Assembly (NCBI GenBank): GCA_012862575.1 | Contig: BLSF01000018.1 | Coordinates: forward strand, 377,680-441,679 | DNA from: Parietichytrium sp. I65-24A | Lineage: Eukaryota > Sar > Bigyra > Thraustochytrida > Thraustochytriidae | Reading direction: 5' to 3' | Length of the DNA: 64,000 nucleotides | The notes under the pieces: model-generated | What the model saw: the letters and a program-made list of their open reading frames with translations, nothing else | The model's database searches: none | What the model was told of the DNA's origin: nothing | Program-made: the position numbers and the translations under genes | In this document: one piece after another, positions 23,142 to 51,226 of the stretch | How positions within the stretch are numbered: position 1 is the stretch's first letter | Layout of the letters: each line of letters begins with the position of its first letter

Positions 23142-24272
23142 TCACATCATAAAGTTGGCAAGTCGACGTCTGTAGCGCTTTGTAAGATCGTGGCCATTTC
23201 CCAAGGCTTCAAACATGTTGAAGAGCAGCTTGCGAGCAGCACCGTCCTGAAAGTTTCTGTCGGCCTTGACGATTTGCAGAGCTTCTTCGGCGGCTTCCTC
23301 GTGTCTCTCGCTGGCCATGAGTCCTTCCGCCAGCTTGAGACGCTCCTCCAGCGAGAGAGTCTCCTTGCGAGCAAGCATGTCGTCGAGGTCGGTACCGCTC
23401 TCCTTGTTGGCCTCGGCGAGCTTGAAGGCGGCCTTCACCGAGACAATCTCGGGCTCCTTGTCGAACTTGCTGTAGTCCGCGGCGATGTGGTCAATAAGAG
23501 CTTTGGCGCTGTCAAAGTCCTTTTGCTGCAGTGCGCATCTCACGAGACCAGCGCACGAGAGCGCCTTGACCTTCTCCACGCGAGTGGCTTCCTCGCCCTC
23601 AAAGTCATCCATTGGGATGTCCGCAAGCTGCCTGAGTATCTGTGTTACATTCTCCACTGGCGCGCTCTTAGCCGCGAGACCCTCCATGGCCTGCTTGAGT
23701 AGCATCTCCGCCTGCTGCACTGGGTCCTTTCCTGCGCCCGCTCCATTGTCATCCTTGGCGGCCATCACCGCGCGGTCCACGAACTCCTTCACTACATTCG
23801 CCGGCTGTGCCCCAATAAACTGGTCCAGCAGCCTACCTTTGTACACTGCCATCACCGTCGGCAGACTTTTGATCTGCAGCGACTGCGCCAGCTGCGGGTT
23901 CTTGTCCGTGTCCAGCTTGGCCATGACCACCTTTCCACCGTGCGAGCGCACCACCTTCTCGAGCATCGGTCCCAGCGTCTTGCACGGCCCGCACCACTCC
24001 GCGTGGCAGTCCAGCACCACTGGCACTGGCGACTGCATCACCTTGCTCTGGAACGTGCTCGCCGTCACGTCAAACACTGGGTCCGCCGACCCCGCGCTGG
24101 CCAGCCACCGACGCCACCCGCCCGCACCTCGGAAAGAATCCGCGACATCTGGCTTGGTCGCGCCTGCGCTCGCGCGTGAGATCGCCGATGGCGCGATTGA
24201 GCGTCTGCCCACGCTGCCGAGACCGCCAGCGCTGCGGACCAGATGCCGCCAGGCGCCTGCACCGAGAAGCAT
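23142..24272 (-). CDS. CnoX/YbbN-type thioredoxin with TPR tail, probably mitochondrial
   Basis: 376 residues, ATG at 24272, one exon. The first ~45 residues are rich in Arg, Ala and Ser and nearly free of acids, as expected for a mitochondrial presequence. A thioredoxin domain follows (about 65-175) with the redox motif W93-CGPC-97 and the cis-Pro loop SLPTV. The C-terminal TPR-like region ends ARKLLFNMFEALGNGHDLTK, then RYRRRLANFMM, which is the typical end of bacterial CnoX (YbbN), a chaperone-redox protein that hands clients to GroEL. Many alpha-proteobacterial members keep CGPC, so a mitochondrial inheritance is attractive; E. coli has lost it. Likely role: protecting matrix proteins from oxidation and supplying Hsp60. 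Confidence 0.85.
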   Translation of the reverse strand: MLLGAGAWRHLVRSAGGLGSVGRRSIAPSAISRASAGATKPDVADSFRGAGGWRRWLASAGSADPVFDVTASTFQSKVMQSPVPVVLDCHAEWCGPCKTLGPMLEKVVRSHGGKVVMAKLDTDKNPQLAQSLQIKSLPTVMAVYKGRLLDQFIGAQPANVVKEFVDRAVMAAKDDNGAGAGKDPVQQAEMLLKQAMEGLAAKSAPVENVTQILRQLADIPMDDFEGEEATRVEKVKALSCAGLVRCALQQKDFDSAKALIDHIAADYSKFDKEPEIVSVKAAFKLAEANKESGTDLDDMLARKETLSLEERLKLAEGLMASERHEEAAEEALQIVKADRNFQDGAARKLLFNMFEALGNGHDLTKRYRRRLANFMM

Positions 24273-27706: not shown

Positions 27707-30135
27707 CCAAAATCGCAGAGTGTCTATGCCGTAGGATCTTTATCAAGACCTGGATATCACCCGTCTACACGCGCAACTTTCATCTTCGTCCTGGCCTGAC
27801 CGAGAGCCGAGATTTTGCTACTCAGAGCAGCGCAACGAGAAGACGGTTTCCGTTTCTTTGTCAGGATCGTCTGAGGGCATATGTATGGAAAAAATTCATT
27901 TCCAAACGCATTCGATTGTGGGCGACGTGTGTATTCGTGCAATCTCTCAGGGTAGTGACTCTGTCCGAACGAGAGGGTGATGGTTTCCCGATGGTGGTTT
28001 CAACCTCTCTCTTTCTTTCCCTCTGCCAATCCATTGTGATCATTGTCAGTCAGCCTGTCTGTCAATCTGAAGGCACGCACAAAGTGAACGCGCAATGTCA
28101 CATTTGCGCAAGGAAGAGCGCGAGCTGGCGATAGAGAAACTCCGTGTCTTCACTGTCAACATGGTCTGTGACTGCTATTTTTAAATTTAAAATTCTAATT
28201 TTCAGACATCAAATCCCTTCGTTACGAGTCGTGTTGAAGGTGTTGAAGGAAAGATTCTCGCTGTCAATTGGTCGTCCACGTTCGTGTAACATAACGTCCA
28301 GCTGTCAAGACTCGGGACAATCACTACAGTACAGTGTCTTCATTATGCAGCTTGCTAATACTCTTACATCAAAGTTGTCCGTTACAACTGGCCAGCCTTC
28401 ATTCCAAAGGCTAAGGCTAGGGTAGGATGTCCTAATGCAGCCGTTCGTTTCCTTCGAGACCGGACCATCTCGGAGCAAGTCATAATTATCGACAGAGAAC
28501 TGTAATTGACAGTGAGTGCGAGTGCGAGTCAGCCATGAACGGATTGGTCAGTTTATGTCCAGGGTTCAAAGCTTGGAGAGAACTTTATTTAAAAAACTCA
28601 AACTAAACAGTGAGCGCAGGTTACACAGAATCCACAAACGCTCTCAGCTAACAACTCACAACTCACAATCCACGCTCGCAGCAACAGAGACGCGCGGAAA
28701 AGAAAATGTGTCTCAGTCTATTGGACATTGGGGAGGAGTTGTCTCTTTGAGACCGTTTGGGATCGAAAGACGCTGCACTGGCGCATAGACACTTGCAGTG
28801 GATGCCCGCTACCGCCCACGTCGTTCATTCGACTGATTTCAATTTGATTGATTGATTGATTCATTCATTCATTTGATAAAATTGATTCATTTGACTCGAT
28901 TTGATGTGATTTGATGTGATTTGCAACTGCTGCAATTGCGACAGCAACAGCTCAGGACAACCGCACCACAAAACACAAGTCGAAGCGAGACAAGACAAGA
29001 CGAGACAAGACGAGACAAGACGGGACGTGGGCAGGAGGTTGGGGTGAGTGAGTGAGTGAGTGAGTGACCGAAGAGACGCAATAGCGGACAACTACATCGA
29101 CCAGAGGGAGGGGGAGAGAGACTCTGAGAGGGAAAGAAAGAAAGCAAGCTGCGGCTGAGTACTTGCAATTGCAGAGAACTGTTCAACAGGCGGGGTGGCA
29201 CTACCAGAACAAACCGCAGCAGGACATTGCAGTCAGCACCGGTGCCCGTGGCTAGTCAGTGAGTGCTTCCTCATAACCTGCAACCTGGAACGATTCAGTA
29301 CGGCGAGTCACTCTGCAGTCAGTACTGGCCAACTCTTCGAATAACGCGCTCGCAAGCTCAAGCTATCTCAAGCTCAAGCTCAATCTACGAGGCTACGAGT
29401 TACAGGGTTACACGGGTTACAGCGGCTCCGTATGGCTCCGTGCTATTGAGTACAGACTGTACAGACTGTGAGTCACGGTAAACACTCACTCAGCGGCACT
29501 GAGTATCACTGAGTAGCAGCGCCAAGTACAGTTGCAAGTAGTGTGTTTGGGCGTTTTGACTGCTCGCTTGCCTGACTTGCCTGACTTGCCTACCTTGGCC
29601 CAATACAAAGAGACGGTAGCAAGCGGCAATTATTGAGTAAGCCAGCGGCAAGCGGCAAGCGGCAACCAGCAAGCAGCAAGCGGTGAGCGGCGTCGCAAGT
29701 CAAGTCGCCATCGCGCAACGTGCGCGAGCGTGGCTAGCAGCTAGGCAGGTCTCTGTCTCGGTGAGGTGTTCGAACCTCGGAACCTCGGTGCAGTCAGTAC
29801 CTTGCCTGCCTATGTGCCTGTCTGCTGGGTCTGCTGGCGCGATAGCAGGCTGGAAGGAGGAGGACCCTGAAGAAGGCGCCAAGCGATACGCGGTAGGTGC
29901 TCGAAATCTGCGAGGACGAGGCGGGGCAAGTGGCGCGAACAACGGGCCGAAGGGGCGGGACGCGGGGTAGAGTGTCTGGCACGGGGACTGGTTTCCCGTG
30001 CGCAACTCGGAGTCGTGTTCGGGAAACATTCTCGTATTCTGAGGCGCGGAGGGGCAGGTAGTGCGAGGCCCTCGGGCTCCCGGCGCCGACGGCACTCGGT
30101 GCTGGCCACCTGGCCAGAAGCGCACAAGTGCCACG
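27707..30135. other. Intergenic upstream of the tetra-repeat channel
   Basis: 2.4 kb without a convincing gene. It contains a TTGA-type run at about 28843-28872, AGACAAGACG repeats at 28985-29028, GTGA repeats at 29045-29067, and CTTGCCTGA and AGCGGCA repeats at 29570-29680. The channel frame is open upstream of its first ATG. Confidence 0.5.
28985..29067. repeat. Adjacent GACAAGACGA and GTGA tandem repeats
   Basis: Imperfect AGACAAGACG units followed by a pure GAGT/GTGA run; about 1.1 kb upstream of the channel start. Confidence 0.8.
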
Positions 30136-33100
30136 ATGACGGAGGAACGAAAGGCGAATTTCAGGGATCAGAGGCTTCAAAGCGTGTTTTTCAGCAGCAC
30201 CCCGTCGACCAAGAGGAGGACTGTTTTCCACCCACTCAGACTGCTGGGGCTGAAGCAAAGCGCGAGCGCGGGCGACGAGGAGGAGCAACGGCGGCAGAGC
30301 ATCATTCGCAGAGTTGAGAGCATCTCTTCGTCGATATCAGAACATGCTCTTCCTTCGCCGTCCTCCAAGCGGATGCGGCGGTCAACGGGTGGCAGGGTGC
30401 ACCCAGCATCACACACCAACATGAAGCCGTCCGACGTTTTGAACACATTTGACGGGTCGCTCGACACTAAGCGACTCAAAGTACGACACGACTCGCGACT
30501 TTCGGTTGCCAGCGATATTGTCTTCTGGGTAGCGTGTATGACAGCGTTGGTCTTGGGGCCAACTCTGTTTTTCTTCCCTTATGACTTTCTCGACGCGAGC
30601 GATGATTCTGACTCAAATCTGAGCTCCTGGCCGCAGATCTGTGCGGTCTGCAACCTGGTGGAGTGTATTTTTGCCCTTAGAGTGTATCTTCGAGCAATTC
30701 ATATTCTTCCAGAGCACGGGCCATTTGAGTGGGCCGGGCCGGTCTGCCTCAATTACGTATTCTCGCGGAAATTCATCACAGATGTTGCACTTGCAATTCC
30801 ACTTTTGACGATCGCCATCTCCAAGTGCAGCTATCCGACGCTCATTTTTGGGTGCGTGCTTCGGTTTGCATTGCTATTGAAGAGGGAGATAATATTGATA
30901 CCCTTGACGAAGTTGCGGCCCTCAGATAGCGCTTCGAAGAGCTATACTCTGGACTTGTCCCTTTTGGTTCTGAAAATATTGCTCTTCGCCTACCTGTTGG
31001 CGTCGGGGTTTTACTACGTGTCATACCGGGACATGAAAAACGGGGCGAGTTATCTGAATGTGACACTTTATTCGGACAATGCCGAGGATTCTCCTGACGA
31101 GGATCTCAGCACCCTAAATTTTTCGTTCAAAGCTGCCAACACAACAGCTGACCTGCTGACATCTCTGTATTTTGCAATCCAAACTCTGTACACTGTAGGA
31201 TACGGTGACGTTATTCCTCTCACCGTCGCACAAATCCCGTTCACTCTAATCTGTATATTTTTCGGAACCGTCGTGCATGCCTTGGTGATCGCGCAAATGT
31301 CCTCCCTTTTAAACAACTTTGACGTGACCGCAGCCCATTTCAAGGAAAAAATGGAGTCCATACACAGGTATTTGCGAGCGCGCAATATTTCTAGCACCAA
31401 CAAGCTGAAGGTCCGGGAATATTTTGCTTTTTTGTGGGATCGACAAAGGGGCAAGCTGGAGAGCTCAATTCTGCAACTTTTGCCGCCAAGTCTTCGGGAG
31501 AAGATTAATAACGGTCGTCGACAAGCGGTGCTTAATGTCCACATGTTTCAGGGCCGGGACCTAGCCTTTGTTGACTCTCTTGTGGCAGCCTTGCAACCCG
31601 AGCTTTTGAACTATGGAGATTTTCTTTGCGTGCGGAGCAATATCGTGGATTGCATGTGGTTTCTTTCAGATGGCGAGTTGTGTGTTCTTTCGCCAGGTGC
31701 TGGCGACGGGTTCGAGGAGGAGAGCTCTGTGATGACACCTATGAACAAGAATAAGAAGACAGAGGTCTTTTCTCGTTCTACCGCAAATGTGAAATCGAAG
31801 TTTGTGCCACGCTTTAAAACTCGCAGGCCAAAGGGACAGGCGCAAAGCTGCACGATAGAGGTGATTGTTCCAGGCGAGAAGGGATTCTACGGGGAGGAGA
31901 TTTTATTTAACGACAATGCTGTCCACCGGTTTTCAGTCGTTGCTTCTCGAGTGTGTGAGCTCCAGCGACTTGACGTAACAGTTTTCAACGACGTAATTGC
32001 TGTGTTCCGCGCTTATCTGGGCGAAAGTGATCATCCAGAATTGGTCGAGGAAAATTCCTATTCCTCTCTCCAGTCTGACATGACATATAGTGATTCTGGG
32101 GCAGGAAAAAGCAGTAAAAGCGTGGTTCAAAAAGAAAGCTCAAAGCTTCAGATTCTCACGGATGTTGCGCCTAGCGGTCTGCAATTGAAGCCGAGTGGGC
32201 CAGGGGCAGGTTTTCGGCCGAGAAGGGGATCTGCTTCGACTGAATTCATTAAAGATCTCCGCGATACGATGGACGATAGCTGCATTAACGACATTGTGCA
32301 GTCAAGCACTCTGATGCGGGCGCCAAGCCAGCTCTTAAAAATACGGAGTGAGAGCAAGGACATAGCTGCGCAAAATTCGCCCACATCTTCTCGCTCACGC
32401 AGAAAAGCACGCAAACGCCGAAGATCGGCAATTAAAGCAACCGATTTGGGGAATATTTTGAGCGCAATTCCAGCACGTATCAATGTAAGTGTGCTCGATG
32501 ACATTATGCAGGCTCGTATCTTGACCCAGGATCCAGGGGTTCTGGCGTCTGTGCAGAGTTGGGTCGAGCGCGAAAGGAGGCGCGAAGATACGCAAAAAGC
32601 GCTCGCCAAAAAGGCCAAGAAAGGAACAACTTTTCTCAGCTTTGGGAGGCAAAGCATTGCTCAGACTACTCGAGCAGTTTTGCCGAATCTAAAGCGCAAG
32701 ATAAACCAATGGTTTGACCACGCTGCCGACATTCTCGACACTCCGGTCCTCAAAGTGGTATACTTGTTTCTGGTGCTAATTTCGGTCCTTGTGTACTGCG
32801 TATTCCCGCCCCTCATGCTGGCCCTCTTCAAAAATGGAGGTGAGGTTGATGTCGGGCTTTACTTGGGGTGCTGGTTCCTCTGTGACTGGATTTATTTCTC
32901 CAGCGTTCTACTCCTGCCTCCTCATCAGGAAAGGAGCTTGATGTCTACTGCAGAGAGCAGCACCCAAGGTCGTGGCCAAACCGCGTCCGCGCGGCACGGG
33001 AATATCAGGCACACTCTGAGCGACAATATTTCGAGGCGAGGCATGTTTCCGGGGATTTCCAACGCGGTTCTTTTGCTGCTCTCGTTGACGGCGAATTTCC

Positions 33101-36100
33101 TCAGCTTTACAGGCACCGAAACCTGGCACCTGTACCTCCGTTTGCCATTTTCCTTTCTGCTCTACCGTCTCGTTGCCGAGGATTTGCCCCGCGTTGCTAT
33201 CTACGTCAAGTTTTTGCGTCGGCTCAACACGATCCAGATGCTCGCTTTGCAGGTTGCAATCGCGATGATGACTTGTATCCACTGGTTTACGTGCGCGTGG
33301 GTCACGTTGGAGCGCGATGATTATATTCACGGGTTGTATTGGGTCCTGGTGACCGTCACGACGGTAGGCTTTGGGGACATAAAACCTAGCATGGATTCGT
33401 CAAAAGCGTTTACCCTTGTTGTAATTGTTTTCGGAGCCACCATGTATGCAGGGTTTGTTTCGACACTCGCAGCCATGACGCGGAGTGGAGAGGGCTCCCC
33501 CCCCGCGGTTGAGCACTTTGGTGACTGTTGCCGGCACTACCTCACTCAAAAGTCGTTCCCGCCCAAACTGGTCGACGACTGCCAAGCATACCTCGAATAT
33601 GCTGCAGTGAACTACCTCCGGCTAGAGGAGATGTCCACGTTGTCCAAGACATTTCCCAAATCGTTGCAAGAGCGGCTATTGACGGAGATATTGTCGGAGA
33701 GATTTCTAAAGAGCTCAAAATTCTTTAACACGTGCCCAAAAGCATTCTTAAATGCGCTAGCCCTGCAGATGAGAAAGCAAACCTTCCCAACTGGAACGCT
33801 TATCACATGTGGTTATAAATCTGGTCAGAAGAACCAAAAGGCCGCATTGTATGATCGTGGGGTGAATGACTGCTTCATCTACTTGGAGTTTGGCGAGGCA
33901 GAAATTCTCTCAAGCAGCGGAGCCGCAGTTGGCAAAGTGGAACAAGGCTCTGGCTTTGCTCCCTTGGCTCTGTTCGAGCCGCTCAAGCAAGAGCTCATGC
34001 TCCGTGCTACAACGACATGCGAAGTATGGGTACTTGATGTGTTTTCGTTTCATAAAGTTTTGCGAGACTTTGGAAAATCGAAATCCGATAACATGGACTC
34101 GCCCTCCCTATTTTCCAACGAGGTATCGAGTCCGGAGACGGTCCACGAACTTAAGGCTCTTCACAGCAACGGGTCGATCGATACAGCGCAGCTAAGAATG
34201 AATTTGTACAATCGCGCTCTTGAGTTATCACAGGATACTGGCAAGATCGCGAAGAATTTGAACAACGCAAAGCTCAATAAGCTTATGCTCGCAGCAGAGG
34301 TTGAGGGGGAGGATGACTCCGCGAAGCTGGACAAAGGGGTGTTCCTGCCTTCCTCTCGAGTTCAGCTCGGTTGGCAGATGATCGTCTTAGGTGCAACATG
34401 TTACAATCTCGCCAGTGCGTCATACAGAGTGGGAATCTCTTATGGCTATCTCACTGGTAGCTCAATTTTCTTCACGACGGATTGGTTTGCCGACATTGTC
34501 TTCATCGCAGACATATACCTGCACTTCCGACACTTCGCCACGGAAAAGAATGGCATTGTCGAGGGCCGAAGAGCAAACTTTAGCCGTGAGTACCTGCACA
34601 AGGCGTTCAAATTTGATCTCTTCGCTGCTCTCCCGCTGTCTATGCTTGCAGGAATGATGATAGGATTCAACACCCTTCCAGTGACAATTTACTCTCTTCT
34701 CCGCTTGCCAACATTTGTCAAAATATACAGAACAGGGATCTGGCTTGGGATCTTGCAAGACCTCGTTCCAGTGCGGAAAGATTTTGTTACGCTGGTGGCG
34801 TTGCTGTTCATCATCCTCATGTGTGCCCATTGCGCAGGCTGCTTCTTTCTTGGCATGGCGAGATGGAACCTATCCACTGGCTCTAATAGCTCCTGGGCCA
34901 CGAGTCCATTTTCTGGCGATGACGTCTTGTTGGTCGAAGTGGATGGAGTCTACCAACGTAAAAACAATACGTACCCAAGATCTGTGTACTGGGCGATGAC
35001 TGTGATCACCACTGTCGGATACGGGGACTACACAGGAGTCACGGACAGTGAGATAGTGTACACGATTGTTTTACTCATAGCCGGGGGATTTCTCTACGCT
35101 CTGATTTTGAATAGTTTGGAAGAAATCATTGCGCATTCGGACATTAGCTCGATCCTCTTTCAGCGAAAAATAGACAACATAAATGCGTATATGAGTCACA
35201 GGGCCCTGCCAAAGGAGATCTCTCAACGCGTGCTCGCATATTACAATGTTTTATGGCTGCGCCAAAAGGGCGTGGAAGAAATTTGGATCCAAGAGAACCT
35301 TCCTTTGCCTCTACGGAGGCAGATTCGTGTCGAAGCTATAGGAGAGCGAGGACTGAACAATTTTCCGCTGTTTAATAGCTGGGACTGTGTCGAGGAGCTG
35401 GTGGACTTGTTGCGACCAGCAACTTTATTGGATGGTTCGATCATTTTCCTTCAGGAAGAGTTAATTTTCAAGTGCTTCTTCGTGTGCAGCGGCAAAGTGG
35501 AATATCTGTCTGGAGACGGCGGTAAAGTTTATACATCGTTTTCTGCAGGGGATTTATTTGGAGAAGTCCAGTTCTTCTTTGGTGAGCCCACAGAGTGCAT
35601 TGCAAGGGCAAAGGAGCTCACAGATATCTACATTCTGCATCGCGTTGACTTTGATATGTTTGTGCAGCAGCGTCCAGCTCTCTCGGAGAGGTACGAATCG
35701 GATCTGGCCAGCATTGAGCACGACTTGAGACGGAAAGGCTCTCTGGAAGCGTTTACCAAGAACCTCAACAAAGCGAAGGTTAACAAGTTCTTTTCCGAGG
35801 AAGTGAAGCGGGGTAGGGAGGGTGTGTGGTCTGGATCAGCATTAATTCCCGCATCAGACCTTCGCCGCAGACTGTGGGACATTCTTGTGATGGCAATTGC
35901 AGTCTACATGTTTGTCACAATCCCATTTCGCGGGGCGTTTCTCCGTCAAGCGGTTCTCTCCGCTGATCGGGCGTCAGAGATGAACAGCCAGTCCTTTAGG
36001 CCATGGGATGTGTTTGCAGATTTCGTGTTGATAGCGGACGCGGTCTTTCGAGCGCTATTTTTCTGTGCGATGAAAGGAGGGATGGTCTTGACCTCGCGCC

Positions 36101-38319
36101 GAGATGTGAGGAAGCATTATGTGCGCTCCTCCTTGCTTCTGGATTTGATTATGATGTTCCCAGCCGACTACTTTGTGGCTTTCAATGTGGTTCAGGTGAG
36201 CGGATCGCGAGCAGCCTGGGTGGGCCTGCTTCGGGGTTTTAGGTTGCTAGTTGGTTTGAGATTTCTTTCACTACTCAACTCTATGCAGAGTTTTGTGGCC
36301 GAGCGAGGCATCATTTTGAGTTCTGGATATTATCAGATTATCCGTATGACGTTTGTTGGAGCTGGAATGGTTCACCTTATCGCATGCGCAAACTGCATGC
36401 TGAGCCAAAGGTATCTGAACATACTTCCCGAAGGATATGCGCCCATTGATGCATACGCTCTATGTTTGTACTGGGCGATGTACACGATTACAACGGTAGG
36501 GTACGGCAATGTTCCTGTCGACGCCCCGATCTTTTCGATTTTTTGCATGGTCTTTGGGGCGTTTCTGTGTGACGCTGGAGTGACTGCGACGTTGACCAAC
36601 ATCTACTCGAATCAAGACTGCAAAGCGAGCGAGGCGAAGAGGAAGAGTGTTAGTGTCAAGCAGTATTTGACAACCCACCACATTGCTTCAAAGACAAAGA
36701 AGGAGGTGCTTGCGTACATGGATTTCCGGCAAAAAGCTCTCGATAGTTTGGACGAAAGAGAAATCCTAAGCGAGTCAAATTTGCCATGGAATTTTCGAAA
36801 TGAGATCGCAATGCACGCAGCGCTGCATGCCGTCCCTGACCTAGGGAGACATCCGCTTTTTGCAGGACTTTCTGTGGGGCTCTTACAAACTTTAAGCCTT
36901 ATGTTGACGCCAGTGCTGCTTCCGCAAAAGCAAGTTTTGCTCGCCTCCGCAAGTAAAACCGCGAAAAGCCCTCCAAAACTCGGGAAGCAGAATACATTTT
37001 TCTCCTTTGCAAAGGAAGCTTCACAGTCTTTCAAACCTTTGCAGCGCTTCCAGCGAGGAAACCGTTCGAAAACCTATCAGACGGGATCTTTGAACACCTC
37101 GTCAGCTGCTAATGACAGTGCAGTGTCAAACTCGGCAGCCATCTCGGTGCCCGAGCACAGCGCCATTCCAATCTTGGAAGCGGATAACTTCCAGGCGTTG
37201 AATACCCTGGAGTTTCTTCGAGTGGCCCACTTGGAGGATCTGGGGCAGTCGTTGTTTCACGCGTCGTTTGCGAATGTTGGGCACAATCGATTTCCTCTGT
37301 TTGAAGCAGAAGAGAACATTTACTTTCTGTCACATGGGTCTGTACTCGTGACCTCCCTAGGCGGAAAGTTCGCCAAGGTCATTCGGCGCGGGGTGATTTC
37401 GAAAGCGAGTGGGCTGGACTCAGCGCGAACGCTGACTCATTGCGAAGCATTCGTGCTAGACATTAACCAGTACAACATCTTGTGCCAGTACAGCGGCCGG
37501 ATTGGAAGTATCTACGATACGTTCGAAGAGCTTCTTGAAGATCCGATCGGTTTCCACTATGTGGAGGCGTTCCTTCGAGACAGGAAACACGGAGTATTTC
37601 TTTCTGACCTTCAATTCTGGAAGGAGTGCAAAGAGTACGAAAACAACCCCACTACGTTTGCAGCCAGGAGCATATATGAGAACTTTGTGAAGCAGGAAAG
37701 CAATTCGGCCATCGTTGGACTGGAGATGGGAGTGATCGACAAACTGTCGCAGGGTTTGGATTCAGGAGACAAAGGCTTGTTCGCCGCGTCTCGTGTAGAG
37801 ATTTTTAGCCGTCTGTCCCATGCTGTAAAGCCCCGGTTCCTCGCGAGCGCTGAGTTTGTCGAGCTGTTAAGAGCAAAAGAGGAGGGAGTAGAGTTTCAAC
37901 CGGCTCCTGACACCTTCTCGTCAGTCGCTTTGAAGCGAGCCAACAGTGCCTCGCGGTCAACGGCGATTTTAGAGGTGATTCCAAGTCTTACACATGAACG
38001 GAGAACGGTTGTGACGACAGACTTGTCTGGTTTTGACAGAGAAGCAAGAGTCGCGCCAATGAAGATTGTGCGCGAGGAGTTTGGCGCAGACGCAGACTTG
38101 GAAGAGGAACCCGAGGAAGACCTCGATGCAGGGTTCGAAAAGTTGGTAGAGGAGGCGGAAGCAGAGACGCACGAGTTAGAGGAGTCTGACTTGAGCGAGG
38201 GGCTCCAGATGCACGGGCAAGTAGCTGCCGTTGCAAATGGAGGGTCAGAGGAAGGAAATTCTTTATATTTGGAAGAACTGCTCGATGTTCATAAGACTGA
38301 CGTCACGAAGGCAGATTGA
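30136..38319 (+). CDS. Four-repeat CNBD-type K+ channel (CNGK-like) with C-terminal RGS domain
   Basis: 2727 residues in one exon; first ATG at 30136 (MTEERKANFRDQ). Four complete 6TM-pore units sit in one chain, with filters GYGD 355-358, GFGD 1078-1081, GYGD 1628-1631 and GYGN 2122-2125. Each is followed by a C-linker and a cyclic-nucleotide-binding-like domain (about 470-625, 1199-1309, 1739-1849, 2239-2452). CNBD 1 and 3 keep recognisable phosphate-binding cassettes (GFYGEE, LFGEVQ); 2 and 4 look degenerate. S4 segments carry few basic residues, suggesting weak voltage sensing. This plan matches CNGK, the pseudotetrameric K+ channel of sea urchin and fish sperm. Residues about 2461-2580 then form an RGS domain (FEELLEDPIGFHYVEAFL, LQFWKECKEYENN, RFLASAEFVELL), followed by an acidic tail. 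It probably acts in the plasma or flagellar membrane, linking cyclic nucleotides and G proteins to K+ flux. Confidence 0.9.
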   Translation: MTEERKANFRDQRLQSVFFSSTPSTKRRTVFHPLRLLGLKQSASAGDEEEQRRQSIIRRVESISSSISEHALPSPSSKRMRRSTGGRVHPASHTNMKPSDVLNTFDGSLDTKRLKVRHDSRLSVASDIVFWVACMTALVLGPTLFFFPYDFLDASDDSDSNLSSWPQICAVCNLVECIFALRVYLRAIHILPEHGPFEWAGPVCLNYVFSRKFITDVALAIPLLTIAISKCSYPTLIFGCVLRFALLLKREIILIPLTKLRPSDSASKSYTLDLSLLVLKILLFAYLLASGFYYVSYRDMKNGASYLNVTLYSDNAEDSPDEDLSTLNFSFKAANTTADLLTSLYFAIQTLYTVGYGDVIPLTVAQIPFTLICIFFGTVVHALVIAQMSSLLNNFDVTAAHFKEKMESIHRYLRARNISSTNKLKVREYFAFLWDRQRGKLESSILQLLPPSLREKINNGRRQAVLNVHMFQGRDLAFVDSLVAALQPELLNYGDFLCVRSNIVDCMWFLSDGELCVLSPGAGDGFEEESSVMTPMNKNKKTEVFSRSTANVKSKFVPRFKTRRPKGQAQSCTIEVIVPGEKGFYGEEILFNDNAVHRFSVVASRVCELQRLDVTVFNDVIAVFRAYLGESDHPELVEENSYSSLQSDMTYSDSGAGKSSKSVVQKESSKLQILTDVAPSGLQLKPSGPGAGFRPRRGSASTEFIKDLRDTMDDSCINDIVQSSTLMRAPSQLLKIRSESKDIAAQNSPTSSRSRRKARKRRRSAIKATDLGNILSAIPARINVSVLDDIMQARILTQDPGVLASVQSWVERERRREDTQKALAKKAKKGTTFLSFGRQSIAQTTRAVLPNLKRKINQWFDHAADILDTPVLKVVYLFLVLISVLVYCVFPPLMLALFKNGGEVDVGLYLGCWFLCDWIYFSSVLLLPPHQERSLMSTAESSTQGRGQTASARHGNIRHTLSDNISRRGMFPGISNAVLLLLSLTANFLSFTGTETWHLYLRLPFSFLLYRLVAEDLPRVAIYVKFLRRLNTIQMLALQVAIAMMTCIHWFTCAWVTLERDDYIHGLYWVLVTVTTVGFGDIKPSMDSSKAFTLVVIVFGATMYAGFVSTLAAMTRSGEGSPPAVEHFGDCCRHYLTQKSFPPKLVDDCQAYLEYAAVNYLRLEEMSTLSKTFPKSLQERLLTEILSERFLKSSKFFNTCPKAFLNALALQMRKQTFPTGTLITCGYKSGQKNQKAALYDRGVNDCFIYLEFGEAEILSSSGAAVGKVEQGSGFAPLALFEPLKQELMLRATTTCEVWVLDVFSFHKVLRDFGKSKSDNMDSPSLFSNEVSSPETVHELKALHSNGSIDTAQLRMNLYNRALELSQDTGKIAKNLNNAKLNKLMLAAEVEGEDDSAKLDKGVFLPSSRVQLGWQMIVLGATCYNLASASYRVGISYGYLTGSSIFFTTDWFADIVFIADIYLHFRHFATEKNGIVEGRRANFSREYLHKAFKFDLFAALPLSMLAGMMIGFNTLPVTIYSLLRLPTFVKIYRTGIWLGILQDLVPVRKDFVTLVALLFIILMCAHCAGCFFLGMARWNLSTGSNSSWATSPFSGDDVLLVEVDGVYQRKNNTYPRSVYWAMTVITTVGYGDYTGVTDSEIVYTIVLLIAGGFLYALILNSLEEIIAHSDISSILFQRKIDNINAYMSHRALPKEISQRVLAYYNVLWLRQKGVEEIWIQENLPLPLRRQIRVEAIGERGLNNFPLFNSWDCVEELVDLLRPATLLDGSIIFLQEELIFKCFFVCSGKVEYLSGDGGKVYTSFSAGDLFGEVQFFFGEPTECIARAKELTDIYILHRVDFDMFVQQRPALSERYESDLASIEHDLRRKGSLEAFTKNLNKAKVNKFFSEEVKRGREGVWSGSALIPASDLRRRLWDILVMAIAVYMFVTIPFRGAFLRQAVLSADRASEMNSQSFRPWDVFADFVLIADAVFRALFFCAMKGGMVLTSRRDVRKHYVRSSLLLDLIMMFPADYFVAFNVVQVSGSRAAWVGLLRGFRLLVGLRFLSLLNSMQSFVAERGIILSSGYYQIIRMTFVGAGMVHLIACANCMLSQRYLNILPEGYAPIDAYALCLYWAMYTITTVGYGNVPVDAPIFSIFCMVFGAFLCDAGVTATLTNIYSNQDCKASEAKRKSVSVKQYLTTHHIASKTKKEVLAYMDFRQKALDSLDEREILSESNLPWNFRNEIAMHAALHAVPDLGRHPLFAGLSVGLLQTLSLMLTPVLLPQKQVLLASASKTAKSPPKLGKQNTFFSFAKEASQSFKPLQRFQRGNRSKTYQTGSLNTSSAANDSAVSNSAAISVPEHSAIPILEADNFQALNTLEFLRVAHLEDLGQSLFHASFANVGHNRFPLFEAEENIYFLSHGSVLVTSLGGKFAKVIRRGVISKASGLDSARTLTHCEAFVLDINQYNILCQYSGRIGSIYDTFEELLEDPIGFHYVEAFLRDRKHGVFLSDLQFWKECKEYENNPTTFAARSIYENFVKQESNSAIVGLEMGVIDKLSQGLDSGDKGLFAASRVEIFSRLSHAVKPRFLASAEFVELLRAKEEGVEFQPAPDTFSSVALKRANSASRSTAILEVIPSLTHERRTVVTTDLSGFDREARVAPMKIVREEFGADADLEEEPEEDLDAGFEKLVEEAEAETHELEESDLSEGLQMHGQVAAVANGGSEEGNSLYLEELLDVHKTDVTKAD

Positions 38320-38343: not shown

Positions 38344-38349
38344 AATAAA
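38344..38349 (+). terminator. Polyadenylation signal of the tetra-repeat channel
   Basis: AATAAA 25 bases after the channel stop codon. Confidence 0.45.
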
Positions 38350-39040: not shown

Positions 39041-42000
39041 CTCGCTCTTTCTGTTCCTCTGTTCTGTTCTGTTCTCGGTGGGCCTGAGTTTCCGGTTTGC
39101 TGCTCGCTCTGTTTCAACTTTCAACTTGGACCCGACCCTGGCACGCTCAGGCTTACACCGGCACACTCTCAGTACTGTACTGACAGTGACTACTGGACAA
39201 GCCGCGGTCACCGTCGCCAATTCGACAACTCGACAACCCACAATACTCCAAATTCCGTATGCCTGGCCTACCTCCCAAGTACAGTTCGCACACGCGCGCC
39301 CCCCTTCTCTCTGTCTCTCTTTCTCTGTCACACTGTATTCACACCAAGGGCTTTGTGATTGGCTTAACAAGTGGCGTGGCAGCACGCGAGCTTGGACGCG
39401 TGTCTTGCGAATAGAGCGCTCACTTGCTCGTGTATTTTGTATTTGTATTTGTTTTTGTCTTTGTAAACTGAGATATGTGAATTTTGATAGTTTTGATGTG
39501 ATTGTGATTTGGGTTTGCAACTTTTCCAACTCGTCCATGCGCCGCCGGGTCCTATGCCGCATCTACGCCACCGCCTAATCAGCGAGTGGTCGCCCCTCTC
39601 TCTCACTCTCTGTGTCAACACCATGATCCCCGGGGTTCTACTGGTAGGGATTAGATAGAGGTAGGACCCCGTGGAGAAACTGTCGGGTTGCCGGGGATGT
39701 GGTAGCGGGTGGGCATAAGTGGTGCTAAGGGTTGGCGTGGACGTTCCAGCGGGCACTTGATTGCCACTCTGTGGGGGGATAGAGTATGCAGTAGATGTGA
39801 GTAGCCCTGCAGTTTGTTTTTGTTTTTGTTCTTGTCTTTGTTCCGAGGAGAAAGTGGGAAAAAAAGCGATGAAGTTGTGGGAGCCCCAACCAACTACTCA
39901 ACTAGGTTGTCACTTTCCTTCCTTCCTTCCTCCTTCCCATCGTCGTCCCTCACAACTCTCCAACTTTGAGCAGTCTCTCGTTCCTACTGAGAGAGCCTTG
40001 CCGGCGATTTTCGTTGGGGTGCTCTCAGTAAATAGTAAATCAATCGAACAAACCTCCAAGGAAACTCCTAACAAAGCGCCACGCCGCCCTCCCGCCACTA
40101 TGCTCTGCTATCTCTCTGGTAGGACATGTTAGGACCTGAAAAGTGAAAAGAAGGGAGAAAGAGATGGCATGAGGCTAGCCGGGCTCAGTAGCCGAGTCTA
40201 TTAATAGACTGAGTGGGGGTAAGAGGCTTTAGCAGCAGGACTCGAACAAATCGTCGCGCCACTTCAGTGTGAGTAGGCTATAGTTTCGCCTGACGAATCG
40301 GTGTGAAGCAGCTAGCAGCGTCCAAAGTTCCAACTCAGCAGATGATGAGCGACGCAAGTTGCCTCCAAAGCGTAGGAGCCTTTATGGAAGTCCTAGGACG
40401 CGGAGAGAAGAGCAGGTTCAGTTCGACCTGAAGGAGTAGCACCTGAAAGGGAGAATTGCTAAGAGTGTCGCTGGTGAGTCTTGAGCTGGATGAAAAGGAA
40501 TGGAAACCACACTTTTGAAGGCAATGACAGCACAGACGGTGTAAGCCAAGCTAAAGTTGAGTGGAACTGTTAATTTAGAGATGGAGTTTGAATGATAAAA
40601 TCAACTTGCTCCGTCCTGACTTTGAAGTTGGCGATCTTTGCCGCACGTTGCTCGAGGAGTTTCGTCTCGCTGACCGTTTGTACGACTGGTTCTCAAGAAG
40701 AACGCAAACGAATTCGGAGCTGATAATTGAGCATTAATTGGCCGCTAGACCCTTGGTTGCTCTCTTTGAATTCAAATTTACTGCGACAGGCAACTTCCAC
40801 CAGTCGGGAAGGCAGTAGAGTCGGTAATTTTCTGCTGCGATCGCTACTGTACCTCTACCCTAAATAATAAGAGAGGACGAATGTTTCGGTCTTCTGCAGC
40901 TTCTGCGAATACAGAACAGAAAGAAGTGCAGTCAGCACTCGAAGACTGCAGTCAAGATTATTATCTCCCATATCTTCCATCCTGCTGATTGGTTTGAATC
41001 CTCGAGGGAGTTTCCGGTTTTTAATTTTCAATTGAACATGATTCTGATCTTGGATGTGATCAGTTGTTGACCCACAGCGAACGCTCTCAAGTCTTTCTCG
41101 CCATCAGCTGCCATCACGAAATTGGGCTGTCATCTGGAGAAGAGAAACAAGAGAGAAGGAAGAGCGGAGGGGGAGGGGGGGACAAGATGTTTCAATTCTT
41201 TCAGAATCAGGATCATTCCATTTCGTTCACACATGGAGACAGACGTTCGATTCAAAGATCTGTGGAACGCCCGGCGTCCTTCGACCGCCCGCGACTATAT
41301 AATTCGGGCGTGGTTCAAATCGCTGAGCGGTGCGAATAGTGTAGTCGATGTTGCTTTCGTAAAAGTTCAGATGCAATCTTGCCGGCCCAGGCCCATCGAC
41401 AGTTACAGTTTATGAAATTTTAGAATTTAGAATCTACATGTTGATCGATGTTCAAGCAAGTTGCGGAAGTCTCTGCCTCTTGGCGCCTGTCTGTCTGTCT
41501 CTCTCTCTCTCTGCCACCAACCATGACTTGCGAGGAGAGGCGGATTGGAAATCGCCAAAATATTCCAAAGTTCAAGTCACAGTCGACCCAGAACTCCGCT
41601 CGCAGAGCTCGCAGTTACATTTCAAATACCCGTACTAGTCCCGGTACCGGTCGACCGTCTCTACCGTACCTAGACTACTGTGACATGCTCGCACTTGATT
41701 CCTCGCTCGGTGGGGCCGCGATTGGAGGGGGGCTTCGGAGTCCGAAAAGAGTGCTGCTCCACCACTCCACGACTCCAAGCAGCACACTTGTGCGATAGGT
41801 CCGAACTTTCTCCGCATGGAGATTTTTGAAGCTTAGATCTCAGCGTTTGGAGTGAAGCGTACGGAGAGGCTGCGATATTTTCTCAATTCCAACAATTTCC
41901 AAGTTCCAAAATATTTCGAAAACAACAATCAGTCATCAGTATCCTCCATCCGTTCCCTGTGGCTACTGGTAGCCTCTGGCCAGCTGTAGCTGTAAGTGTA

Positions 42001-45530: not shown

Positions 45531-47729
45531 ATGCCACGGCGCGGACCGGTAACGAGATGCTATCCGACGCTGAGAGGTCACAGTGAGCAAAAGCCACCGG
45601 GCTTGGCTTGGGAGATGGCGCAGGACGCAGCGCAGGCGGCGAGGCGGCAGGAAGAGGCCCGCGTGAAGAAGTTGGAGATGGGCACGAAGGCGCGCCAGGA
45701 GTTCAAAAGGTCGCTGAGGCTGAAAGGACTCAAGGGCGAGAGGAGGAGAGCCACAGAAGCTCTTTTAGAATCCTTTCAGCCTGCGCGCAAAGGAAGTGTG
45801 CCTGTGAAACACAAGGAGACTGCCGTGGTCAATGCAACAGATGACCTGGCGCAGCAAGGGGCCAAGCCGGACGCAGAAAATGGCAGACAGAAGGGGCAAC
45901 AGGAACAGAAGCAACAACAACAACAACAACAACAGGAACAGCAAAAAGCGTCCCCTCAGAACAAAGTTGCGAATCAGAATGTTTCAAAGAGTCCAGGGCC
46001 GGAGGGCAGTGCGAAGGAGCAGGAAAAATGCAAGGTTGCACAGGAAGCCGCGTCAGAGGAGCTTGCCATTGGGGAGACTAGAGGGCGGCACCTGACTTGT
46101 GAGACTCAATTTGGGGATATGAAACAATATGGCAAGGACTTTCTTGATAGTTCGACCATTGGCAACAACATCTTGAGCGAGGAGCTGCGCGAGCTGTTGG
46201 ATTCACCGACTTTTGCAAACAGGAAGGAATTCGTCGCTCCTTCTGTAAATTACGCTGTGCACGACACAAGACATCAAATGGTGACGTTCGAGTCGCTGGT
46301 GAAGGACGACCCCGATGAATTCTTTCGGCTTCTAGCCGAAACGTTGAAACATCGACGCAATCAGAAACGTCAAGACGACACAAACCGGAGTCCGACGTCA
46401 GCAAGTCGGGATCCTCAAACTGAAGAGGAGCAATCATCACCATCTCCCGAGTCGCCCAAACGTAACGTATTTTCGCAGTTCGAGCTCAAGTTGGATAAAG
46501 CCATAGGAAAAATCACTGGCGGAAGCACCCAAAGAGATCTCACGGCTACCAAGTACTGGAGTGGATGGACAATAAAGCGAGTGGTGCAGAGGAGAAAAAA
46601 TATTGTGCTCATGCTAGAAGAGCAAATGAAGCGCCTGACGGAACCCCAGAGCGAGGATGATGCGATGCCGCAGCGCCCGACAAAGTCGATTGTCGCAGGC
46701 AAAGGCGCTTGGCAGAGGACACACAGCAGGCTGGAATCTTGCCCTTCAGCAGCTTCGATTAGTTCGAGTCGATCCTTACGCAAGACGACAAAACAGAGAC
46801 TAGAGGACACAAACCGACAAATTCAAAGCCTGCGACAGGCTGTTGAGCGAGCAAAAGTAGCTGCCCGGAAGGCGGAGATGGAAGCGAATAGGCAGTTTGA
46901 GATGGTGGATGCTGCCAATAAGAAGGCTGGGTCAAAGGACAGAAATAAATTCCTGCACCGCGCCACAAAATCTGTTCGCCTCTCCACGCCTATTCCAGAG
47001 CACGTCGTGAGAAGACACCCACGTCTCATCACAAGCGCTAGATCAGAGAAGCCAGTATCCGGGAAGCCGGCTGCCGAGAAATCCTCGATACCGAAAAGAC
47101 CAATCTCGGCTGGCAGAGTTTCTGGTCGCCGACCTAACGTCACCACTCGAGCTCAAGGTTTTGTGAAGCGGAGTCAGGAAGAGCACCGCTCCTCCAAGAA
47201 TAAGAAGCACGCCACCATCAAGCATTACACCAAGCCGATCACGAAAGCATCGGAGTGTGACATTGTCGAGTACCTGGGCAAGATCGACGAGCCTAAATTT
47301 GATGGCGAGGAGCTTTACTCACCTTGTGGGACAGTAGACTGGATCAGCTATGCGGTGGAGCAGAACCGAGGAGAATCGAAGCCACGGAGGCCGATTTCAG
47401 CAGCTCCTGCGAGAACTTCGTCGAGGCCATCATCATCCCGACGCAGACCGACAACTGCGACGGCTGTAAGAACAGAAAGGCAAGAGCCTTTCACGGAAGA
47501 ACCTAAGTTTACCAACTTTTTGCGGGCAAAGTCCCATGCTGTGAATGGGAGTGAGCATGTAGAGGACTACACCGACCAACTCGAGACCTTGCGATCGAAT
47601 GACCCTGAGACGATTAATGCCAGAGTAAACAGCAAAGTTCAGGAGCACCTCGATTTAATTATGAGATACATGCGCGAGCCCGCGAATGCTGCATATAGTA
47701 ACCACGTTTTATTTCCCACAGAGACCTGA
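45531..47729 (+). CDS. Basic coiled-coil/disordered protein, unknown
   Basis: 732 residues from the ATG at 45531; an internal ATG at 45615 (MAQDAAQAARRQEEARVK) is an alternative start. The sequence is rich in Arg, Lys, Gln, Glu and Ser. It has a poly-Gln run from CAA/CAG codons at 45914-45943, helical coiled-coil stretches near 430-475 (TKQRLEDTNRQIQSLRQAVE) and a short aromatic patch TKYWSGWTIKRVVQRRKNI. Repeated RPISA-type patches (KRPISAGRVSGRR, RRPISAAPARTSSR) resemble those in many flagellar or axonemal proteins, but this is compositional, not homology. No enzyme motif. A microtubule- or flagellum-associated protein is a guess. Confidence 0.6.
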   Translation: MPRRGPVTRCYPTLRGHSEQKPPGLAWEMAQDAAQAARRQEEARVKKLEMGTKARQEFKRSLRLKGLKGERRRATEALLESFQPARKGSVPVKHKETAVVNATDDLAQQGAKPDAENGRQKGQQEQKQQQQQQQQEQQKASPQNKVANQNVSKSPGPEGSAKEQEKCKVAQEAASEELAIGETRGRHLTCETQFGDMKQYGKDFLDSSTIGNNILSEELRELLDSPTFANRKEFVAPSVNYAVHDTRHQMVTFESLVKDDPDEFFRLLAETLKHRRNQKRQDDTNRSPTSASRDPQTEEEQSSPSPESPKRNVFSQFELKLDKAIGKITGGSTQRDLTATKYWSGWTIKRVVQRRKNIVLMLEEQMKRLTEPQSEDDAMPQRPTKSIVAGKGAWQRTHSRLESCPSAASISSSRSLRKTTKQRLEDTNRQIQSLRQAVERAKVAARKAEMEANRQFEMVDAANKKAGSKDRNKFLHRATKSVRLSTPIPEHVVRRHPRLITSARSEKPVSGKPAAEKSSIPKRPISAGRVSGRRPNVTTRAQGFVKRSQEEHRSSKNKKHATIKHYTKPITKASECDIVEYLGKIDEPKFDGEELYSPCGTVDWISYAVEQNRGESKPRRPISAAPARTSSRPSSSRRRPTTATAVRTERQEPFTEEPKFTNFLRAKSHAVNGSEHVEDYTDQLETLRSNDPETINARVNSKVQEHLDLIMRYMREPANAAYSNHVLFPTET

Positions 47730-48123: not shown

Positions 48124-49824
48124 TTACTTATCCTCCTCACTGAGATCAATGACGATGGACTTGAGCTTCGACTCGGCCTTGGAAAGCGCTTTCCCCGCCT
48201 GCTCTGTCGAAGAACGCGACATCACAGGTGAATTTTCGGGCAAAGGATTGCGCAACTCACCAGACTCCTCTTCTCGACTAGGCACGCTCAATTCAGCTGC
48301 AAACAATCCACTACTTGGCACTCCGTGACCCCCACTCGCGTCTTCCTTTGTATCAAGCACATCTGCCGCAAATCGGATGGTCTCCGTAGAATCAGACCCG
48401 TTCTCCCTCGGAACCATGACTTCGGACTTTGAGAGCGCTTCAGACGGTGTATAGTCAACGTTTTTGGAGAGAGAAATGTCTTCCTCTGCGAATGAGTTGG
48501 AAGGCAGGGCACTTTCACTTGTGGGACTCCCGGAAGTTTGCAGTGATCCAGACACCGCTTCGCTGGTCCCGGAAGATTTCTCGCCTCCCTGCTGCGCAGG
48601 AGAGGCTGAGGGTTTTGCCGGGGCCGTCTTTGCAGAGTCTTTCTGTTGGTTCTTTTGGTTCTTCTCTTTACGCAGGCTCGCCATCGCCTCGTCAATATTG
48701 ACCATGTCCTTCTTGGCTCTCCCCCCGCCAAGAAATCCTGGAATAAAGGTTGACGTGATGGCCCCCCAGATAGCATCTCCCGCCTTTGAGTGAAGGTCTG
48801 GTTCACCAAGGACTGAGTTAATCCAAGTGACGGCATGTTTTGCCACCTGTGGGTCGTTCAAGATCATGTGTGTCGTGTCCGTCCCAAGTTGCACAACAGT
48901 GGTTCGAAACGTCTCTGAATTCATCACGTGCTGGAAGAACTCTGCCGTCAACTGCTGTGAGTACTCGTCCTCGTACAAACCTTGAAAGAGATTTCGCAGG
49001 GCGTCTTTGGTCGTTGGTTTCTGCAGAACCTGCTGCAAGAAGGTACTAGCCTGATCGACAAACTCGGGGGCAGTTAAAATTCGGACGAAAAGGTCGTGCA
49101 GCATGGACTTGGTTTCTTCGCGAGCGGCTACACTTGCTAATAGATCGATCACGGCTCGCCGAGTATGCTCGCGCTCGAGGAGCTGGTTGAGAAACTCTGT
49201 AGTCAGCCTTAATGCATGCTCATCGTTTAAAAGCTGATAGACAACACCCTGGGCCAGGTTTTGAGCTTCACGCTGGACACTTTCGTCTCCAAGCGTCCTG
49301 CTGGTGATGTCCGCGCTTGTGGTTCCAAACCACCATTTTACGTCATCACGATATGCATAGAGCAGAATACCGCTCACTGTCGCAAACCCTGCTGTCCAGC
49401 GCAGCGTGTGGTATTCCTTGTACTGCATCGAAGAATCTAGCCTTCTTATTGTGTCTCGAAGGGTTTCGTACGATTGCGCTTGCCCGGGTGATAACTTGCC
49501 CTCCATTAATTTACCTGGCCCGAGTCTGGAATACGTCCCAGATAGGTCCTCCAAGATATTCCGTAGCCGATCGAAAGTGTCGTTCACAAATTGATCCAGC
49601 TTTGCCCGCCATTCGGGAAACGCGGTGCCGCTATCTTCCTTGCCGTACTGAGCGTTTTCGTTCTTGCTTTCTTGTGTTGGCCGCTTCCTCTGCCCTTTCG
49701 CCAGCTCGCCACGCCCCTTCGCGTTTCCTGGCGTACAAAGTTTCCGAAACTGGGCTTCCGACCAAGACCTTGCCCAACGCCGCCCATGATTTCCGCCGCG
49801 AGTCATAGCAATCCGGCACTGCAT
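48124..49824 (-). CDS. Probable mitochondrial helical-repeat membrane protein, unknown
   Basis: The first ATG of the frame is at 49824 (MQCRIAMTRGGNHGRRWARS), giving 566 residues; a second ATG six codons later is possible. The N-terminus is basic and free of acids for about 20 residues, like a mitochondrial presequence. One probable membrane segment lies near 140-160 (WTAGFATVSGILLYAY). After it come four to five degenerate helical repeats of about 35 residues (LTTEFLNQLLERE, LHDLFVRILTAPEF, LRNLFQGLYEDE, FFQHVMNSETF), each with an L-x3-FL/LF core. The last ~170 residues are low-complexity and Ser/Glu-rich. I do not recognise the family; targeting is inferred from composition only. Confidence 0.65.
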   Translation of the reverse strand: MQCRIAMTRGGNHGRRWARSWSEAQFRKLCTPGNAKGRGELAKGQRKRPTQESKNENAQYGKEDSGTAFPEWRAKLDQFVNDTFDRLRNILEDLSGTYSRLGPGKLMEGKLSPGQAQSYETLRDTIRRLDSSMQYKEYHTLRWTAGFATVSGILLYAYRDDVKWWFGTTSADITSRTLGDESVQREAQNLAQGVVYQLLNDEHALRLTTEFLNQLLEREHTRRAVIDLLASVAAREETKSMLHDLFVRILTAPEFVDQASTFLQQVLQKPTTKDALRNLFQGLYEDEYSQQLTAEFFQHVMNSETFRTTVVQLGTDTTHMILNDPQVAKHAVTWINSVLGEPDLHSKAGDAIWGAITSTFIPGFLGGGRAKKDMVNIDEAMASLRKEKNQKNQQKDSAKTAPAKPSASPAQQGGEKSSGTSEAVSGSLQTSGSPTSESALPSNSFAEEDISLSKNVDYTPSEALSKSEVMVPRENGSDSTETIRFAADVLDTKEDASGGHGVPSSGLFAAELSVPSREEESGELRNPLPENSPVMSRSSTEQAGKALSKAESKLKSIVIDLSEEDK

Positions 49825-51226
49825 CCTGCTCTTCCGGGGTCCAAATGAACTCACAGTCAATCACCCGACAAAATTTAGCCAATCTGTCCCCAATCGTCCG
49901 TGTCCAATTCCGACTTTCTAGCTCTCAGGGTCAGTCACTCAAGCGCCGGTGGTATTATGTACAACCTAGTCTTTTCGTCACCGAAAGATCGACGATAGAG
50001 TTGCAGTCCTCGCTCGCATAAGCACTACAGGAAAATCCACTTCAATCGATGGCTCAGACAAACAAACAAACAAATAAACCACACTTTTCTACACCGCTAC
50101 ACCGCTACACCTGTAAGCTTGTACACCTCGCCGCTGTGCGACAGCTCTTCGCCAGTGTCCCCGGGGCCCGTGCCGTTTCTAACGGATTTCCTGTGCCGTT
50201 TCTAACGGATTTTAAACGACAATTTGGCGCGCAACCAGCCGCTGTTTCAGTGAGTCAGTGAGTCGCGCAACAAAACTTGACGAGGTGAAGCTCTAACTAT
50301 GAACGCTTTCTTCTTCTCTTTCGCTCTCTCCCACCTTCTTCCTTCTTCCTTCTTCCTCTTCGCGTACCGCGTACCGCGTACTGCCGCTCACTCGTTCAGC
50401 GCGCGAGCTGGCAGCCGGCTGCTGAACCGTGTACGCGGACGATATTTGCGCGGGATTTTCTTGCCGCGTGCGAGGATTTGGCTCACAGCTAGACAGCCGG
50501 GTTCGGTGGCAGACGCACGAGGCAGTCGAAGGGTGTGGACCGGGGAGGAGGTAGGTGTAGATATGGAAGGAGTAGAACGACGGGGTGCGATGTGTACAAG
50601 ACCTCGTGCGACTGTGATCAGAGAGCTGGCGTGAGAGAACCGTAGCGCCGCAGAGAGAGAACCCGGGTTCTGAACGGGTTCTTGGTTCTTGTCATCGGCC
50701 AATCACTTGGATATTAGCAACCAGAAGGTTGAAAAAAAACGCAGGTATTCCTTTTTGTTGCGATGACGACTGCATCCAAAGTATACTATAGTTTACCTTA
50801 AGGTGTCGCCGTAGACTCCATCTACCTTCTACGGTAGCTGGCGGAACCCATCGACGGTAAGAGTCTCCAATCATCCAATCATCCTCATGATTGCGGTATA
50901 TCTTCAACGGAGGCGACGACCCGAGCAAATCAGCACCGTAATCAATTATTGATCGTCATATCTGTTCCTAAAATCCATCCCGAGCACCGACACATATCAG
51001 CCTCGCCTTTCGGTGCAGTCAGTCAACTCCAGACTCTCCAGACAAACACATCTACTCCAATCCATAATCACAAGAACCCATCTCCCCTCAAGAACCCACT
51101 CTCGCGCCACCTTCTCGACCAACACACAAACGGACTCGAGCGGACCCGCGCGGACACACCACAAGGCCCAACGCACTCAGTCCCATCCGTCCCATTCGTC
51201 CCATTCGTCCCATTCCCACCGGTACG
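49825..51226. other. Divergent promoter region
   Basis: 1.4 kb between diverging starts; no gene seen. A TCCCATTCG-type 9-bp repeat (51181-51216) directly precedes the next ATG. Confidence 0.55.
51181..51216. repeat. 9-bp tandem repeat (TCCCATTCG-type) upstream of a start codon
   Basis: About four copies ending 11 bases before the ATG at 51227, so likely in the 5' leader. Confidence 0.85.

Follow-up and report, generated by a model that had tools for sequence, protein, structure and literature searches.

A single uninterrupted open reading frame in the window, the 64-kb stretch of DNA that we analyzed, was predicted to encode four K+ channel repeats followed by an RGS domain in one chain of 2,727 aa. 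The frame lies on the forward strand and runs from an ATG at 30136 to a TGA at 38317 to 38319. We read its product as a CNGK-like single-chain K+ channel in which the RGS fold would lie close to the gating ring and dock or sense a partner, rather than act as a classical GAP, and we give this reading a probability of about 50%. The features are the following:

30136 to 38319, + strand: ORF of a four-repeat CNBD-type K+ channel with a C-terminal RGS domain (ORF, Pfam, codon score).
30496 to 32055, + strand: repeat 1, residues ~121 to 640, a channel unit with a TVGYGD filter (31192 to 31209), a C-linker, and a weak CNBD with an insert (Pfam, PDB search, alignment).
32722 to 34155, + strand: repeat 2, residues ~863 to 1340, a channel unit with a TVGFGD filter, a C-linker, and a CNBD under the Pfam cutoff (Pfam, PDB search, alignment).
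34333 to 35745, + strand: repeat 3, residues ~1400 to 1870, the best conserved repeat, with a TVGYGD filter and a CNBD over the Pfam cutoff (35431 to 35670) (Pfam, PDB search, alignment).
35848 to 37521, + strand: repeat 4, residues ~1905 to 2462, a channel unit with a TVGYGN filter, a C-linker, and a degenerate, split CNBD without the FGE motif (Pfam, PDB search, alignment).
37522 to 37860, + strand: RGS domain, residues 2463 to 2575, with the core positions kept and the equivalents of RGS4 Asn88, Asn128, and Asp163 replaced (Pfam, PDB search, alignment).
37891 to 38316, + strand: acidic C-terminal tail, residues 2586 to 2727, 25% D+E and 8% K+R (composition).
38344 to 38349, + strand: AATAAA, a possible polyadenylation signal 24 nt past the stop (motif).

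The search of the whole protein against Pfam revealed PF07885 in four stretches (128.1 bits) and PF00520 in four stretches (107.7 bits). When the repeats were searched as separate pieces, PF07885 was over its cutoff in all four and PF00520 in three, repeat 2 scoring 18.0 bits against a cutoff of 25. Every repeat carried a selectivity filter of the K+ type (TVGYGD, TVGFGD, TVGYGD, and TVGYGN, at residues 355, 1078, 1628, and 2122, respectively). Among solved structures, the 5v4s channel, which we take to be LliK and bacterial in origin, came out on top for repeats 1 (E = 7.6e-29), 2 (E = 1.5e-19), and 4 (E = 1.4e-15), and SthK was the best PDB match of repeat 3 (best stretch in the whole-protein search). 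The two Pfam families and the filters thus support a predicted pore of the K+ type with four repeats per chain, as the sequence-only reading of this DNA had proposed. The hydropathy scan flagged most of the 24 expected transmembrane segments and missed the S1 of the third repeat and the S4 of the second, so that the description of the units as 6TM relies on the family match. The S4 stretches, with hand-chosen bounds, contained three to five basic residues each, and strong voltage gating is therefore not obvious. Two K+ channel models of NCBIfam also matched, both far under their own cutoffs.

The four repeats are far from alike. They were pairwise 18 to 28% identical over the pore and C-linker and were separated by linkers of 216, 71, and 41 residues (bounds hand-chosen). 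Each of them was closer to an outgroup, 5v4s or CNGA2 (26 to 34% identity), than to any of its sisters (23 to 28% at best), which leaves a recent internal duplication unsupported. The repeats may stem from an old duplication or from the fusion of distinct channel units. In a tree of seven sequences, with no CNGK among them, three pairings of the repeats fell within 1.1 log-likelihood units, and the pairing of 1 with 3 and of 2 with 4, as would be expected under shared ancestry with animal and choanoflagellate CNGK, did not stand out.

The C-terminal match of the predicted protein to the RGS family is far beyond chance. PF00615 covered residues 2463 to 2575 (46.9 bits, cutoff of 23.9, E = 4.2e-12), bearing out the RGS box that had been noticed at about residues 2461 to 2580. 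RGS2 was the best match in a phmmer search of the PDB (E = 1.4e-7); of the 28 distinct sequences listed, 26 were named RGS or GAIP, one was CG5036, which is labeled as an RGS domain in the Foldseek listing, and one was uncharacterized. Seventeen columns were invariant between the box and RGS2, 12, and 14. Models of the RGS part built from the single sequence with two choices of boundaries had mean pLDDT values of 43 and 50 and contained 9 and 7 helices, where the RGS bundle has nine. In Foldseek searches with these low-confidence models, RGS chains took rows 1 to 3 of 28 and rows 1 to 13 and 15 of 34, with E values of 0.6 or worse, TM scores of about 0.24 to 0.33, and an rmsd of at least 11 Å, which amounts to no structural match, the models being poor.

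The box has nevertheless lost most of the RGS4 contact residues that we compared. Eight contact positions, all mapped via RGS14 motifs, were compared, and one was identical; this count includes five positions whose labels (Glu87, Leu159, Ser164, Asp130, and Arg167) we presume to be those of RGS4. At the equivalents of Glu87, Leu159, and Ser164, the box carries Ser, Arg, and Val, Asp130 is changed to Glu, and Arg167 is kept. The remaining three, Asn128, Asn88, and Asp163, are given in an excerpt of PMC8252600 as the contacts critical for GTPase acceleration, and they are replaced by Gly, Asp, and Ala, respectively, in all three MAFFT modes. Because it no longer has residues described as necessary to speed up GTP hydrolysis, the box is most likely a docking or sensing site and not a classical GAP, which disfavors the earlier idea that it shuts off G-protein signaling. 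The companion suggestion, recruitment of Gα subunits to the channel, may hold. Mammalian contacts are an imperfect guide, however: RGS2 carries Asn at the Asp163 position in our alignment and is selective for Gαq (PMC7572916, in part), so their loss need not mean loss of function, and the organism's own Gα may have changed as well.

Two other functions of the box have to be weighed here. It may be an RGS fold that does not bind Gα at all and serves as a plain scaffold for another protein or just caps the fourth CNBD structurally. The RGS fold of axin is such a scaffold. Seven of the eight contact positions are not identical, yet the 17 invariant columns are kept, in keeping with this explanation; no partner is known, and the sequence gives no preference for it over Gα binding. 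We consider it a minority possibility, and it overlaps the branch of our own reading in which the box recognizes a partner other than Gα. Alternatively, the box could be a working GAP with which the channel switches off nearby Gα, as first proposed. In favor of this, both Pfam and phmmer assign it to the RGS family, it retains the equivalent of Arg167 and has Glu for Asp130, and protist 7TM-RGS proteins are GAPs for their own Gα subunits, according to the part of PMC9283941 that we consulted. The replacement of all three critical residues and of the Glu87, Leu159, and Ser164 equivalents, with a single contact position identical among the eight (five of them with presumed labels), makes this unlikely.

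The CNBDs are also eroded. Four such domains had been proposed; alignable remnants are indeed present in all four repeats, but when these were searched as separate pieces, PF00027 was over its cutoff only in repeat 3 (41.8 versus 27.5 bits). It stayed under the cutoff in repeats 1 and 2 (15.7 and 19.6 bits), and repeat 4 gave no PF00027 match in Pfam. The phosphate-binding cassettes were compared by aligning the four repeats with SthK and 5v4s in two MAFFT modes. The Gly-Glu pair of the cassette was present in repeats 1 and 3 and missing from repeats 2 and 4, and the position of the cassette Arg was occupied in both modes by His, Gln, Thr, and Gly in repeats 1 to 4, respectively, and thus by Arg in none. 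Repeat 1 (YGE...HRFS) has an Arg one residue past this position, and a shift of register could rescue it; repeat 2 reads FAP...QEL, and repeat 3 keeps FGE. The CNBD of repeat 1 contains an insert of 45 residues (31714 to 31848), and that of repeat 4 is split by one of 117 residues (36940 to 37290), with bounds set by eye in both cases. In-frame introns were not favored as an explanation of these inserts: of the 18 and 5 loose GT-AG pairs that they contained, not one had a GTAAG, GTGAG, or GTATG donor.

Because the cassette is incomplete in all the repeats, simple gating by cGMP or another cyclic nucleotide is doubtful. The label "CNG-type" given by the sequence-only reading therefore holds for the CNBD-type channel plan and much less for the gating. 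In the CNGK literature, as excerpted from PMC4749565, the third CNBD of the sea urchin channel is thought to be the only working one, and repeat 2 of the zebrafish channel is without the conserved Arg. An ordinary cGMP-gated channel of the CNGK type, with the RGS part incidental, would fit the overall plan, and the best CNBD here is likewise in the third repeat, with FGE kept. In that very repeat, however, the cassette Arg is changed to Thr, and a full cassette is found in none of the four. We regard this explanation as improbable, although it is compatible with the others.

The degenerate CNBD of repeat 4 bears on the position of the RGS box. The cyclic-nucleotide binding site is formed by β-strands 5 to 8, the cassette, and helix C (PMC7576140, in excerpt). 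In repeat 4, the last strand ends with CEAFVLD (residue 2442), leaving 20 residues before the RGS match starts at 2463, a gap that in our reading fits helix B and hardly helix C. The alignment behind this placement is short, concerns a degenerate CNBD, and has gaps that differ between the two MAFFT modes. If the RGS box does start at the expected place of helix C in the fourth CNBD, any partner of the box would sit near the gating ring.

Our preferred reading, the channel with a docking or sensing RGS module, would then work as follows. One polypeptide would form one K+-conducting pore, a pseudotetramer on the plan of animal CNGK. The CNBD-like domains would assemble into a gating ring on the intracellular side, for the most part not operated by ligands, with repeat 1 or 3 at most still sensing nucleotides. 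The RGS box would dock or sense activated Gα or another partner, thereby tuning or placing the channel. We model this role on RGS-containing effectors such as the amoebal RGS-RhoGEFs. In the portions of the reports consulted, EhRGS-RhoGEF binds EhGα1 selectively when the latter is activated, as an effector-side sensor of Gα in a protist (PMC3499586), and the RGS-RhoGEF of Naegleria shows state-selective binding but GAP activity too (PMC9283941). A bolder version, in which activated Gα directly gates or tunes the K+ channel by way of an integral RGS domain that lacks catalytic activity and takes the place of helix C in the fourth CNBD, is rather unlikely. The term "one-polypeptide receptor-to-K+ module," which had been suggested for this protein, overreaches, since its four Pfam families at E values up to 1 include no receptor domain.

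The continuity of the frame was assessed with a codon-usage score trained on 12 other ORFs of the window and computed in 300-nt segments for the six frames. The frame of the ORF ranked first of the six in all 27 consecutive segments from 30136 to 38235, including the RGS box and the tail, and the score was negative in the segment containing the stop. The same frame also ranked first, weakly, just 5' of the ATG (29836 to 30135), leaving the start of the ORF unfixed by this score, and again at 39136 to 39435, where the score was negative. The junction between channel and RGS box showed neither a stop nor a change of frame, and the coding score did not fall there, which puts the RGS part in the frame of the channel, barring an undetected assembly error. 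The AATAAA at 38344 would be compatible with a transcript that takes in the RGS part. The ORF, the Pfam repeats, the filters, the codon score, and the RGS matches agree on one frame carrying four channel units and a C-terminal RGS domain, as originally described. The fusion is known from one genomic sequence, but its creation from two adjacent genes by a sequencing or assembly error is very improbable given the unbroken junction, and the intron scan, confined to the CNBD1 and CNBD4 inserts, gave no strong donor.

The rest of the window encodes a variety of other proteins. A polycystin-type channel (16165 to 19926, + strand; PF20519, E = 1.3e-8) is found ~10 kb upstream, placing two large channel genes near each other. 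Two adjacent sulfotransferase-like genes (56321 to 57826 and 58953 to 60368, both − strand; PF13469, the first just under the cutoff) look alike by eye and are perhaps a tandem duplicate. A thioredoxin is fused to a TPR_20 domain at 23142 to 24272 (− strand), an arrangement known from bacterial YbbN-type proteins. The large protein at 1 to 2325 (− strand), which runs past the window edge, has an EF-hand pair and an N terminus that resembles VPS13, with no such Pfam match at an E value of 0.001. Two long ORFs, at 45531 to 47729 (+ strand, 732 aa) and 48124 to 49860 (− strand, 578 aa), had no Pfam match at the same threshold. Other genes encode proteasome, VPS11, SYF2, and CCDC22 proteins, which together with the polycystin mark the DNA as eukaryotic, and the 64 kb contained no Rfam family at the gathering score and no tRNA.

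We found no channel-RGS fusion among the matches listed in open-licence literature, as far as titles and the openings of abstracts tell. Relatives of the RGS box or of the channel were also absent from viral and prokaryotic contig collections, whose composition means that this says little on eukaryotes. If expressed as predicted, the protein would join a K+ conductance and a fold of G-protein signaling in one chain, and membrane voltage and G-protein signaling may thus meet in a single molecule. Were it directly gated by Gα, it would be a G-protein-gated K+ channel that reads Gα and not Gβγ, with no need for a separate effector.

Among known systems, the closest in plan are the CNGK channels of sea urchin, fish, and choanoflagellates, which also have four 6TM-CNBD repeats per chain and GYG or GFG filters for K+ (PMC4749565 and PMC7576140, both in part). 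They differ from the protein described here, in which the linkers are unequal, the CNBDs are degenerate and in two repeats enlarged by an insert, and the channel is followed by an RGS domain. The excerpt of PMC6259924 describes the CNGK repeats as nearly identical, with equally short linkers and without evident specialization, a description that does not fit four unequal repeats with 18 to 28% identity and linkers of 216, 71, and 41 residues. Moreover, in the third CNBD, the cyclic-nucleotide-competent one of sea urchin, the cassette Arg is here replaced by Thr. Given the divergent repeats, the unequal linkers, the missing Arg of repeat 3, and the lack of a favored repeat pairing, we place the protein on the CNGK plan, but we do not file it as a member of the CNGK family.

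In a 2020 survey (PMC7576140, as excerpted), four-repeat CNGK channels were confined to metazoans and choanoflagellates, while two-repeat channels occurred in dinoflagellates, oomycetes, and chlorarachniophytes; no tandem channel was found in labyrinthulomycetes. If the organism is a stramenopile, four-repeat CNBD K+ channels would also occur beyond animals and choanoflagellates. The two-repeat protist channels share the tandem plan, and some have partly eroded CNBDs (PMC7576140, same excerpt), but they have two repeats instead of four, and the term RGS has no occurrence in that article. SthK and the 5v4s channel, the best solved-structure matches of the repeats, are single-repeat channels with intact cassette residues. 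On the side of the RGS domain, the RGS-RhoGEF effectors and 7TM-RGS proteins of amoebae, plants, and other protists likewise fuse an RGS domain to a signaling or membrane module, and the parts of PMC9283941 and PMC3499586 consulted report that these domains bind Gα and that several are GAPs. Their fusion partner is a RhoGEF or a 7TM protein, whereas here it is an ion channel.
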